Shown one piece after another: positions 34,415-38,339 of a DNA stretch of 41,778 nt. The position numbers and the translations under genes are program-made. Within the stretch, counting starts at the first letter, position 1, and every line of letters starts with the position of its first letter. The stretch spans positions 1 to 41,778 of the forward strand of contig JAFWEP010000040.1 of NCBI GenBank assembly GCA_017512885.1, written 5' to 3'. Origin of the DNA: Erysipelotrichaceae bacterium (GTDB lineage: Bacteria > Bacillota_I > Bacilli_A > Erysipelotrichales > Erysipelotrichaceae). The notes under the pieces were generated by a model. That model was not told where the DNA came from, did no database searches, and saw only the letters and a program-made list of their open reading frames with translations.

Positions 34415-35332
34415 TTACTGAATGCTGGTGATCAGGGAATTCATCTGGTCTTCCGTAAGACCGTGGCCTTCCTGTCCGGCATTGAAGAGGATCACGTAGT
34501 TGAATCCGCCGAAGCTGAAGGAAGCGTTGTTGATGAGAGTGCCGTCGCCCAGGCAGTTGACGGTCAGCCCCTTATGGCTGTAGTTCCAGGACTTGCTGTA
34601 GTTGTTGAAGTCACCGGAGAGCTCTTCCGCATCGACAACGTTGGACTTGCGGATCAGCATCTCGTCATCATGACCTTCATAGAGTCCGCCGTAGACGCCT
34701 TCCATGCAGATGTACTTCCAGAACTTCATGCCTTCCGGCAGAGCTTCTTCGACCGGCAGATCCATCTCGAAGCCGGCGATCTCAGCAGCCTTTGCGGCAT
34801 CTTCGGTCTCGGTCCAGGGATTCGGCATACCGGGTGCATAATCTTCTTCGGCTACGAAGAGCGTGCCTTCAGCGATATCGCCCATGCCGTCCTTCCATTC
34901 CAGACCTTCCTCAGTGACCAGGAAACTTCCTTTCCCGTCCGTGTAGCCGGTCTCGCGGGACTTTTCCGTACCGTCATCGTTGAAGACGATCGTTTCCATT
35001 TTCGCATCCTTGTAGTCCAGCTGTTTCTTGTCGGCATCGTAAACGGCATGCATCGTCCATTCGCTGTGGGCAGCGGCGCTGGAGCTCCAGCTCACGCTGA
35101 TGTCCGCACCGTCTTCGACTGCCGTCAGCGTCAGTACGCCGCGTCCGGCAACGGAATCGACATAGGTACCGGCGAGTTCTTCGCAGGATGCGGAAGCCGG
35201 AGCCTCACTGGCTTCCGGGGCAGCCGTGGGTTCCGTCGTTTCGGAAGGCTGCGGTTCTGCCGGTTTGCTGCAGGCAGTAAGAGTCACGAGTGACAGGAAA
35301 AGTACTGTCAGGATCGTTAAGAATCTTTTCAT
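34415..35332 (-). CDS. Lipoprotein with a DUF4367-like C-terminal region
   Basis: A 305-residue exported protein. The signal peptide ends in a lipobox (LVTLTAC, lipidated Cys21), then a disordered P/E/A/S/T linker, typical of a lipoprotein held on the outer face of the membrane. The middle domain (about 50-160) is a beta-rich, acidic region I do not recognise. The C-terminal part (PNPWTETEDAAKAAEIAGFE onward) recalls DUF4367-type domains found in many gut Bacillota lipoproteins. ATG at 35330-35332 has AAGGAG 8 nt upstream and is preferred over the ATG six bases earlier. It has its own promoter and terminators on both sides. Function unknown. Confidence 0.82.
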   Translation of the reverse strand: MKRFLTILTVLFLSLVTLTACSKPAEPQPSETTEPTAAPEASEAPASASCEELAGTYVDSVAGRGVLTLTAVEDGADISVSWSSSAAAHSEWTMHAVYDADKKQLDYKDAKMETIVFNDDGTEKSRETGYTDGKGSFLVTEEGLEWKDGMGDIAEGTLFVAEEDYAPGMPNPWTETEDAAKAAEIAGFEMDLPVEEALPEGMKFWKYICMEGVYGGLYEGHDDEMLIRKSNVVDAEELSGDFNNYSKSWNYSHKGLTVNCLGDGTLINNASFSFGGFNYVILFNAGQEGHGLTEDQMNSLITSIQ

Positions 35333-35356
35333 TTTCATTTCTCCTTATCCTCACAG

Positions 35357-35385: not shown

Positions 35386-35411
35386 ACAAAGGAAGCCGTT
35401 ATGGCTTCCTT
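35383..35411 (-). terminator. Intrinsic terminator after the STAS-kinase gene
   Basis: AAGGAAGCC pairs with GGCTTCCTT over ATAAC, followed by TGTTTTAC. It closes the three-gene operon that starts at 38267. Confidence 0.85.
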
Positions 35412-35413
35412 CT

Positions 35414-36595
35414 TCAGAACTGAAGGGTATCGATGTTTTTGCTGAGCTCGATGATGTGCTGTTTGCAGTTCTCGATCTCTTTGCGGCCCTGCTCGTTCTC
35501 CAGTCCCTTGCGGCGGATGAGCCGGCGCATGATGCGGGTATAGCCGATCAGGCGGGCTTTATCGGCGATCGCTGTGATCTCTTCTTCGCTCTTTCCTTCG
35601 AAGTAAAGGTGCAGGATCGCTTCCCAGATCTCCTTGCCCTTGGCATTGGTGATGCCCAGGAAGTCAACGATGACCTGATGATCCAGTTCGCTGAAGCCCT
35701 GATAGGCATTGAAGATCGAGGCGAATTCAAAGATCGGATGACCGTAGCAGAGCGTGTCCATATCGATCAGCATCGGCTCTCCGTCCTGCAGCATGACGTT
35801 CTTCAGGTGATAGTCACCGTGCAACATATGGTGTACGTCCGGAACGTCTTCGATCAGCTTGCAGAGTTTCGTATAGGTCTCTTCCGGTAGGTATTCCTTC
35901 AGGAAGTGCGCCCAGTCCAGGGCAACATCTTTCATGTCCGGCATCGTTGCAGGATCGATCTCAGTGGCATGGATCTTCTTCAGCAGATCGACGTCCATCC
36001 GGATGATCTCATCCTGTCTCTCCGGTTCTTCGATCAGGATCTTGGCAAAGGTCTTGGAGTTGAGCAGTTCAAAGACAGAACCGTAGCCTTCCTCGGCTTT
36101 GACGATATCGTAAGGGATCGCCGTAGGAATGCCCAGGATCAGTGCGGTGCGGGCCAGTTCCCGTTCTCTCTCGATATCAGAGAGTGCATCCATATCGTAA
36201 TAGACCTTGACGATCGTATCCGGATCGATCCGGTAGACCTTCCCGTTGGCTCCCTGACCGATCAGTTCGCAGCCGGCAACGGACATCTTGCGGAAACCTT
36301 TCCGGATCTCCATCATCTCCGTGAAGCCGGTCATGTCCAGCACCTCATAAACTTCCGGCCGGACGTTGATGACCTTCAGGTCGGGGCAGTCTTTCTTCAG
36401 ACGCAGGATCACCCGCAGTCCGGCACTGGAGATATACTCCAGTTCTTCGGAATCGATGATGACAGCCTTTCCGGGAGCTTCGGCTCTGGCAGCATTGATC
36501 GCTTCTTCCAGTTCCGGGGAATTGCTGGAATCGATATGTCCGCAGAATCCCAGGATCAGAGTATCCTCGTTCAATTGGGTCTTCAGAAGTTCCAT
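35414..36595 (-). CDS. STAS domain fused to an APH-type kinase
   Basis: A 393-residue two-domain protein. Residues 1-105 are a STAS (anti-sigma antagonist) domain with the phospho-acceptor box EYISSAGLRVIL, where Ser57 aligns with the phosphorylated serine of RsbV. Residues 106-350 are an aminoglycoside-phosphotransferase/choline-kinase-like fold. It has a glycine loop (IGQGANGKVYR), the ATP lysine Lys130 (TIVKVYY), the catalytic loop HGDYHLKN (259-266, Asp261) and the metal-binding IDMD (277-280). All kinase residues are present, so it should be active; its substrate is unknown. A basic helical tail (RRLIRRKGLENEQGRKE) ends the protein. It lies 21 nt after the RsbW-like gene, the partner expected to phosphorylate the STAS serine. 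No antibiotic role is implied. Confidence 0.85.
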   Translation of the reverse strand: MELLKTQLNEDTLILGFCGHIDSSNSPELEEAINAARAEAPGKAVIIDSEELEYISSAGLRVILRLKKDCPDLKVINVRPEVYEVLDMTGFTEMMEIRKGFRKMSVAGCELIGQGANGKVYRIDPDTIVKVYYDMDALSDIERERELARTALILGIPTAIPYDIVKAEEGYGSVFELLNSKTFAKILIEEPERQDEIIRMDVDLLKKIHATEIDPATMPDMKDVALDWAHFLKEYLPEETYTKLCKLIEDVPDVHHMLHGDYHLKNVMLQDGEPMLIDMDTLCYGHPIFEFASIFNAYQGFSELDHQVIVDFLGITNAKGKEIWEAILHLYFEGKSEEEITAIADKARLIGYTRIMRRLIRRKGLENEQGRKEIENCKQHIIELSKNIDTLQF

Positions 36596-36616
36596 AATGC
36601 TATTCTCTCCTTGCTT

Positions 36617-37150
36617 CTATTCGATATTCTTGCGGATGCGCAGGATATTGCTTCCGTCTTTGTATTCGTAAGTTACTTCATCCATGGTCTTTTTGACCAG
36701 GAAGATGCCGAGGCCGCCGATCTCACGCTGTTCGGCCTTCAGGGTCACATCCGGGTCTTCCGACTTCAGCGGATCATAGGGAATGCCCTGATCGATGAAG
36801 GTGATGATGACCGCTAAAGGATCCTCTTCCACATCGACCCGGACCGTAGCCGGACCGGTCTCGGGATGGTAGGCATACTTGGCGATGTTGCTGAAAAGCT
36901 CATCGATCGCTACATCGATCTGCATCCGGGCTTTTACCGGGCAGTCCAGTTCTTCCAGTTTCCGATCCACGAATTCGGTCACGACCGGAATGTTTTCGAT
37001 CGTCGCATCCAATGTCATCTCGTTCTGTTCTCCTTTGTACGGCAGACTCAGCAAGGCAGGATCGTCACAAAGCTCATCGAAAAGAGCGTCAGTTTCTTCT
37101 ATCTGACTTTCCTTTCCAATGCAATATCCTTCCTGATCTTTGTGCGGCAT
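36617..37150 (-). CDS. RsbW/SpoIIAB-like anti-sigma factor ATPase
   Basis: A GHKL ATPase of 177 residues from the chosen start. The N box is IDELFSNIAKYAYHP, the G1 box IDQGIPYDPL, and the G2 box GGLGIFLVKKTMDEVTYEY. Such proteins bind a sigma factor or another target and phosphorylate a STAS antagonist. ATG at 37148-37150 has AGGAAACAC upstream. An internal ATG at 37018 matches the usual family start (MTLDATIENIPVV), but its binding site GGAG is 11 nt away. The longer start adds a 44-residue acidic extension. The gene lies between the hydrolase and STAS-kinase genes. No sigma factor gene is nearby. Confidence 0.85.
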   Translation of the reverse strand: MPHKDQEGYCIGKESQIEETDALFDELCDDPALLSLPYKGEQNEMTLDATIENIPVVTEFVDRKLEELDCPVKARMQIDVAIDELFSNIAKYAYHPETGPATVRVDVEEDPLAVIITFIDQGIPYDPLKSEDPDVTLKAEQREIGGLGIFLVKKTMDEVTYEYKDGSNILRIRKNIE

Positions 37151-37175
37151 GTGTTTCCTGTTCCGATCCCTTTTA

Positions 37176-38267
37176 TTATACTGCATTCGTTTCGATCTCC
37201 GTATCTTTCCGGATCCCGGACTGTACGGCCGTCAGGATCAGTTCCTGGATCGTCTTTTTCGAGACATCGGAACTGGAGACGGCTTTCTTTAAGACCTGCA
37301 GGAAGCCCTTGCCGGCGATCTCCTGGATCGTATCCGCTCCCCCTGCCGAAAGCGCTCCAAACAGTTCCTCCACGAACTGTTCCCGTTCATCCTGAGAGAT
37401 CTTTTCGATCCATTCGTTGATGGCCTTGCAGAGGTAGTTGCTGAAGGAATGGAAACGGTCGGTCTCTTCGACGCCTCTGCCCATGATCTTCCAGTGCGAA
37501 AGATCGTGCGAAAGCAGCGACTCATCCGTGCAGCGTACGATGTGCAGTTCTCCGCAGGAAAGCGGGAACAGGCGGCCGATAAAACCGAAAGACGGCACCA
37601 GCCGGATGATACGGTCAGCCAGTCCCTGGTATCTTTCAGGAGCCATGATCTCCGCAGCAAGCCCCGGCGCATCGTTCAGATAGATCTTCCGGATCTTCTT
37701 CCGTTTCTCTTCCGGCAGAGAAGCACAGGCATAGAGTGCCAGATTGCCGCCCTTGGAATGGCCTCCGACATAGTATTCCCTCTCCTCTTCCAGCATCCGG
37801 TTCAGGTAAGCTGCGGCGTAGACCTGCCCGGCCGTCTCGGTAAAGGACATCATAAAGTCTTCCTTCCAGCCGGTCAGCGTATTGTCCGTTCCGCGGAAGG
37901 CCGTAAAAGAAGTCTTCTCATCGAGCACGAATTCCACGGCGGCAAACTGCATATCCTTCTCTTCTTCATAGATATCCAGATATCTTCTAACGATAATATC
38001 CCGATAGCGAGGACAGGCGCAGGCTTTATAGACAAAAGTCTCCATCCCGCCCGTCACGGTCTTGAGGCAGTAGGCATCTTTTGCGGCAATGATCTCGGCA
38101 CATTCCGAAAGCTTCACTTCCCGGACGGACTTATCGCAAAAGACCGGCTTCAGATCGAGATAGGCCAGTTCCGAGAGGATGATGCTGTCCGCCAGCTGAA
38201 GACCGTCTTCGGAGATCAATAGATCACCTCTCCAGTCGATGTACTGTTCCAGTCGCGTCGTCTTCAT
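37176..38267 (-). CDS. Mbeg1-like (DUF2974) alpha/beta hydrolase
   Basis: A 363-residue lipase-like protein. The N-terminal family segment YIDWRGDLLIS, the lipase segment FTAFRGTDNTLTGWKEDFMM and the nucleophile elbow GGHSKGGNLA (Ser171) are conserved. It probably acts on a lipid or ester in the cytoplasm; the true substrate is unknown. No signal peptide is seen. The ATG has no ribosome binding site, but TATAAT ends 6 nt upstream. A strong SD-like run lies inside codons 12-16 before an in-frame TTG, yet starting there would delete the conserved WRGD segment, so I kept the ATG. It is the first gene of the operon with the RsbW-like and STAS-kinase genes. Confidence 0.86.
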   Translation of the reverse strand: MKTTRLEQYIDWRGDLLISEDGLQLADSIILSELAYLDLKPVFCDKSVREVKLSECAEIIAAKDAYCLKTVTGGMETFVYKACACPRYRDIIVRRYLDIYEEEKDMQFAAVEFVLDEKTSFTAFRGTDNTLTGWKEDFMMSFTETAGQVYAAAYLNRMLEEEREYYVGGHSKGGNLALYACASLPEEKRKKIRKIYLNDAPGLAAEIMAPERYQGLADRIIRLVPSFGFIGRLFPLSCGELHIVRCTDESLLSHDLSHWKIMGRGVEETDRFHSFSNYLCKAINEWIEKISQDEREQFVEELFGALSAGGADTIQEIAGKGFLQVLKKAVSSSDVSKKTIQELILTAVQSGIRKDTEIETNAV

Positions 38268-38307: not shown

Positions 38308-38330
38308 AGAAAAAACCCTGTTGCCAGGGC
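38308..38330 (-). terminator. Intrinsic terminator after guaB
   Basis: GCCCTG pairs with CAGGGT over GCAA on the minus strand, followed by TTTTTTC. It separates guaB from the Mbeg1-like operon. Confidence 0.82.
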
Positions 38331-38339
38331 TTGTGATTC

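Follow-up and report, generated by a model that had tools for sequence, protein, structure and literature searches.

Within the window (the whole stretch of DNA analysed, 41,778 nucleotides of contig JAFWEP010000040.1 from an Erysipelotrichaceae bacterium), three genes on the minus strand lie between two terminator-like hairpins. These features, together with two related genes on other contigs of the source genome, are as follows.

35388..35412 (-), terminator-like hairpin with a 10 bp stem, immediately 3' of the STAS-APH stop codon
35414..36595 (-), STAS-APH fusion protein, 393 aa (Pfam, alignment, AlphaFold)
36617..37186 (-), RsbW/SpoIIAB-like GHKL ATPase, the predicted switch kinase (HATPase_c_2, E=8.5e-21)
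37012..37066 (-), possible remnant of a PP2C C-terminus or linker at residues ~41-58 of the ORF, immediately preceding the ATPase domain (in register with PP2C-ATPase fusions by BLAST)
37176..38267 (-), Mbeg1-like alpha/beta hydrolase, 363 aa (PF11187, E=7e-60)
38313..38332 (-), terminator-like hairpin upstream of Mbeg1, between it and an IMP dehydrogenase-like gene
L008:316-2109 (contig C35, same genome), sensor PP2C phosphatase with two hydrophobic segments, an outer domain and a PP2C domain
L003:91-1860 (contig C38, same genome), MATE transporter with a C-terminal RsbW-like HATPase_c_2 domain

Profile searches recovered the Mbeg1-like hydrolase, the RsbW-like GHKL ATPase and the STAS domain fused to an APH-type kinase where a sequence-only reading of this DNA had placed them. 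That reading had also assigned the three genes to one transcript. Indeed, no minus-strand terminator was predicted between the Mbeg1, ATPase and STAS-APH genes, which together with the flanking hairpins makes a single transcript plausible, but the hydrolase proved to be no conserved part of the module (see below). The ORF of the ATPase gene (36617-37186) contains an ATG at 37018 that is preceded by AAAGGAG and would give a protein of 133 aa; stand-alone ATPases of relatives have 134 and 142 aa. The true start is therefore probably at 37018 rather than 37186, and the upstream extension of the ORF (37018 to 37186) is probably fortuitous. With a start at 37018, the 11-nt overlap with the Mbeg1 gene is likely spurious, the two genes being separated by a gap of ~160 nt. 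(Note that downstream of the STAS-APH terminator, at window positions 34415-35338 on the minus strand, lies a gene for a lipoprotein-like protein with an LTAC lipobox and no Pfam family.)

We surveyed 95 STAS-APH loci, 15 from the family and 80 from elsewhere, the latter kept from at least 576 relatives found in one scan of genome contigs. At 76 of the 95 loci, an RsbW-like ATPase was either fused to STAS-APH or encoded on its strand no more than 6 kb away, which bears out the linkage expected of these two genes across genomes; at 29 loci STAS-APH and the ATPase form a single protein. A PP2C phosphatase lay near the module at 54 loci and a PP2C-ATPase fusion was present at 33. The fusion state has changed 14 times for PP2C-ATPase and six times for STAS-APH-ATPase, and this variety of gene orders and fusions indicates that no single fixed layout accounts for the linkage. 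Moreover, chance linkage should be rare, since the 2.1 Mb source genome holds one PP2C gene and three HATPase_c_2 genes other than those of histidine kinases. STAS-APH and the RsbW-like ATPase together make up a conserved and widespread partner-switching module, distributed among gut and rumen Clostridia, Erysipelotrichaceae and Treponema.

Conserved co-occurrence of DUF2974 (Mbeg1), HATPase_c and STAS-APH genes, a search for which had been proposed as a check, thus holds for the latter two and fails for the first. In particular, Mbeg1 adjoined the module at 0 of the 95 loci, its homologue lay on another contig than the module in all 11 relatives that have one, and a second Mbeg1 paralogue is encoded elsewhere in the source genome. 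We accordingly rejected the hydrolase, which is probably an incidental neighbour, as a member of the module. The same observations make it very improbable that the Mbeg1 hydrolase is the regulated output of the switch, an idea that might otherwise be suggested by the shared strand and by the lack of an intervening minus-strand terminator-like site.

Several other genes recur at these loci. An HD_4 hydrolase gene is present at 31 of the 95 (for example, L047:7175-7744), in most cases flanked by the genes for the ATPase and STAS-APH, and in Treponema the hydrolase is fused to PP2C (L132, L133); its HDxxED motif suggests a SpoT/Mesh1-like enzyme. A gene for a PHP-domain phosphoesterase of ~290 aa (L077:8119-9015 and 15 further loci) almost always follows STAS-APH(-ATPase) immediately. 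In a second type of STAS-enzyme fusion, the enzyme is a Cof-type HAD phosphatase and STAS occupies one or the other end of the protein (L045:5325-6473, L054:8757-9869 and L058:4947-6035). HD_4, HAD/Cof and PHP families act on phosphorylated small molecules, and the presence of such enzymes near the module in relatives hints at a phospho-metabolite pathway. In genus g2, the STAS-APH gene has neither an ATPase nor a PP2C gene beside it and immediately precedes a gene for a GH1 glycosidase (L056:5970-7118, L057:6542-7681). Finally, an orphan family of ~200 aa with no Pfam match occurs near the module (L095:10444-11058, L042:3394-4005, L043:10906-11508, L061:6012-6599); the idea that it is a degenerate ATPase was unsupported (hhalign probability 3.7%).

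The STAS-APH protein comprises a STAS domain at residues 6-99 (PF01740, E=3e-14) and a Pfam APH domain at residues 110-298 (PF01636, E=4e-17), the APH-fold kinase region as a whole spanning residues ~103-393. The AlphaFold model of the window protein has two domains and is confident (pLDDT 94.5, pTM 0.81); for a naturally occurring one-chain STAS-APH-ATPase protein, the model scores were pLDDT 87.7 and pTM 0.77. RsbV (Z 15.7; 97 residues at 1.7 A) and SpoIIAA can be superposed on the STAS domain, and Ser57 aligns with the phosphoserine position Ser58 of SpoIIAA, providing the candidate phosphorylatable Ser/Thr that is characteristic of the STAS antagonist of a partner-switching system. In an alignment of 62 STAS-APH relatives, no variation was seen at Ser57, Lys130, His259-Gly-Asp261, Asn266 or Asp278, and at least 90% of the sequences keep Asp280, in agreement with the earlier claim that all catalytic residues of the kinase (Lys130, Asp261, Asp278/280) are present. 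Because these residues are kept in 62 proteins, the APH domain should be a catalytically active kinase. As for its substrate class, structural matches of the APH half to APH and to choline/ethanolamine-kinase-like proteins were tied. The closest NCBIfam model, TIGR02172 (Fibrobacter APH-like paralogues, a model from which STAS is absent), scored 115.4 bits, below its cut-off of 228.2, and the best curated APH resistance model gave 22.7 bits, where its cut-off is 325. An aminoglycoside resistance enzyme is thus unsupported by the curated APH models, the fold alone being shared.

The catalytic Glu (equivalent to Glu46) and the Mg-binding Asn (equivalent to Asn50) that mark the GHKL switch kinases of partner-switching systems are kept in 82 of 82 module ATPases. 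Six HATPase_c_2 matches were found in the source genome, three of which are ordinary histidine kinases. A 142-aa HATPase on contig C23 was considered as a second RsbW and set aside, its neighbours being Fe-S and NuoE-like redox genes.

A whole-genome search of the source genome revealed a single STAS domain, that in the window, and a single SpoIIE/PP2C phosphatase, that on C35. The earlier statement that neither a phosphatase nor a sigma factor is nearby is therefore correct for the surroundings of the window, but the phosphatase does exist in the genome. Its hydrophobic segments lie at about residues 10-28 and 256-274, and its outer domain has ~225 aa. In genomes of the same genus, PP2C and ATPase are a single protein of 727-728 aa that adjoins STAS-APH. 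The C35 PP2C is co-linear with residues 1-589 of this congener protein (52.7% identity), and the window ATPase is 61% identical to the C-terminal part of the congener protein and 72% identical to that of another genus. Since the C35 PP2C and the window ATPase match the two halves of the congener fusion, the lone PP2C is the natural partner of the ATPase; and since the window gene groups among PP2C-ATPase fusion lineages, the split state of the source genome looks derived. A scrap of PP2C sequence ahead of the ATPase start would fit a derived split, although this match is suggestive only, as seven of 1846 shuffles scored as high.

The SpoIIE-type phosphatase also accompanies STAS-APH from genome to genome. 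Defining the module class of PP2C by a PF07228 score of >130 bits (other PP2Cs scored <90), we found it in 32 of 32 STAS-APH genomes and in four of 192 without STAS-APH. Within the family the counts were 16 of 16 genomes with full-length STAS-APH and four of 130 without (Fisher p=6e-18, with kinship ignored), and in genera g2, g19, g23 and g26 members with STAS-APH have the PP2C, whereas those without it usually lack the PP2C too. Outside the family the counts were 16 of 16 and 0 of 62, with both genes on the same contig in 15 of the 16. STAS-APH itself was present in 18 of 395 genomes of the wider class.

We then consider the output of such a switch. The source genome encodes three sigma factors, namely RpoD, a SigH-like factor of 196 aa encoded beside nusG, which is the position of sigH, and an ECF-type factor of 201 aa, behind whose gene lies a putative anti-sigma gene for a protein with a predicted membrane segment. 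Sigma region 3 was found only in RpoD, both here and in six other module-bearing genomes, and no SigB/SigF-type sigma factor was detected in any of these seven genomes. Nor did a linked sigma factor that would make the module ordinary SigB-type control emerge from the loci, only three of the 95 having a sigma-like gene within 8 kb. Among the 82 module ATPases, the sigma-contact positions of SpoIIAB corresponding to Arg20 and Lys41 are kept in none and in one, respectively. Both residues have been described as mediating sigma binding, and Arg20 is also close to the SpoIIAA site (PMC10345196), so that the argument against a sigma factor from the loss of Arg20 may be weaker.

The module might nonetheless be an ordinary partner switch, in which the ATPase would be an anti-sigma factor for RpoD, SigH or the ECF-type factor, STAS-APH would bring about release and the APH domain would only modulate STAS. 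We consider this unlikely, given that SigB/F-type factors are missing from the genomes examined, sigma-like genes at the loci are few and the sigma-contact residues are absent, and given that the 196-aa factor sits at the sigH position and the ECF-type factor has a putative membrane anti-sigma gene of its own. It has in its favour that STAS, RsbW-like ATPase and PP2C are the classical set, that RpoD and two more sigma factors are available in the source genome and that RsbW is reported to act on the primary sigma factor in Chlamydia (PMC4552016).

The lack of a SigB/F-type factor, together with the loss of sigma-contact residues, leads us to prefer a kinase output to a sigma output. Of the earlier proposal that the switch controls the kinase or the hydrolase rather than a sigma factor, the part concerning the kinase is thus the better reading and the part concerning the hydrolase is unsupported. 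Set beside the observed gene content, fusions, catalytic residues, linkage, co-occurrence and absence of SigB/F-type factors, our preferred reading, to which we assign a probability of about 0.62, is a sigma-factor-free partner switch in which the PP2C and the RsbW-like kinase would set the state of Ser57 and thereby gate the APH kinase, and perhaps the MATE transporter. In this mechanism, for which we infer from sequence the phosphorylation, the binding, which way the regulation runs and the tie to the MATE transporter, the window ATPase would phosphorylate Ser57 of the STAS domain and the membrane PP2C, with its two transmembrane segments and outer domain, would dephosphorylate it. STAS without phosphate would bind the ATPase and phosphorylated STAS would be released; as the APH kinase is covalently joined to STAS, binding and release of the ATPase would gate the kinase directly. 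The MATE-ATPase would be a probable second client on the same STAS domain.

The distribution of the MATE-ATPase bears on this last step. Within the family, it was found in 11 of 16 STAS-APH genomes (that of G002 being in two pieces) and in 0 of 130 others (p=4e-13, with kinship ignored). Outside the family, a clear MATE-ATPase was present in two of 16 STAS-APH genomes and in 0 of 62 without, both lying within about 2 kb of a module-class PP2C, and in further genomes MATE-ATPase genes adjoin the module. The MATE-ATPase may perhaps compete for the STAS domain of STAS-APH. Separately, SDF-family symporters with an N-terminal RsbW-like domain (hhalign 93.7%) were found at L083:6334-7980, L112:2900-4507, L078:6325-7935 and L067:3785-5440; in this domain the Glu is kept and the N-box Asn seems to be missing, as in a possible pseudo-ATPase on a transporter. 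The STAS-HAD and SDF-ATPase fusions appear to follow the same logic as the MATE-ATPase. A tentative extension, which we regard as possible rather than probable, is a network free of sigma factors in which each half of the partner switch is attached to effectors, STAS to APH or HAD enzymes and the ATPase domain to MATE or SDF transporters, and in which one membrane phosphatase would determine the enzyme-transporter pairs that come together and are active.

A stand-alone STAS gene accompanied the module at 49 of the 95 loci, and in those genomes the sole or main substrate is not necessarily STAS-APH. Together with the co-occurring MATE-ATPase, these solo STAS genes raise the possibility that the APH domain is an input, either sensing or modifying a metabolite or serving as an idle ligand-binding domain that tunes STAS, the output then being the MATE-ATPase or the target of the solo STAS. 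Multi-domain STAS proteins of the stressosome, as well as YtvA (PMC10949197), bear sensor domains next to STAS. However, 62 diverged proteins all retain the full set of kinase residues, which would be needless for pure ligand binding, and in other STAS fusions within the network the partner is a phosphatase-type enzyme (STAS-HAD), such that we judge an input role of the APH domain to be quite improbable.

The usual view of partner switching is that it serves to release sigma factors, and the known exceptions with an enzyme output work for the most part on diguanylate cyclases. The module shares its three domain families with RsbU/RsbW/RsbV-SigB and SpoIIE/SpoIIAB/SpoIIAA-SigF of Bacillus but differs from them in having no SigB/F-type factor, in the loss of the contact residues and in the fusion of the antagonist to a kinase. 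It thus appears, from its sequence features, to be a variant of partner switching that has the features of such systems for which we looked and lacks those of SigB/SigF control, namely a cognate sigma factor and the sigma-contact residues. SiaABCD of P. aeruginosa (PMC7647112) is its nearest working analogue: there a sensor PP2C, an opposing kinase and a phosphorylatable protein resembling an anti-sigma antagonist act by partner switching on an enzyme, with no sigma output. In SiaABCD, however, the output is a separate diguanylate cyclase, SiaD, whereas here STAS and an APH-fold kinase share one chain, the ATPase is in many cases a fusion with PP2C or STAS-APH, and ATPase domains also occur on transporters. 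Another enzyme-output case is HsbR-HsbA-HsbD of P. aeruginosa (PMC5085249), in which an anti-anti-sigma STAS protein binds and controls the diguanylate cyclase HsbD; unlike STAS-APH, HsbA consists of STAS alone and has a further role in sigma-factor control, and there is no STAS-kinase fusion. Among openly accessible papers, we found nothing on STAS-APH, MATE-HATPase or TIGR02172. The natural one-chain STAS-APH-ATPase fusions offer compact material for biochemistry. If our preferred reading is correct, 'anti-sigma' annotations in module genomes may mislead, and partner switching would come to include the direct regulation of transport and of small-molecule phosphorylation.
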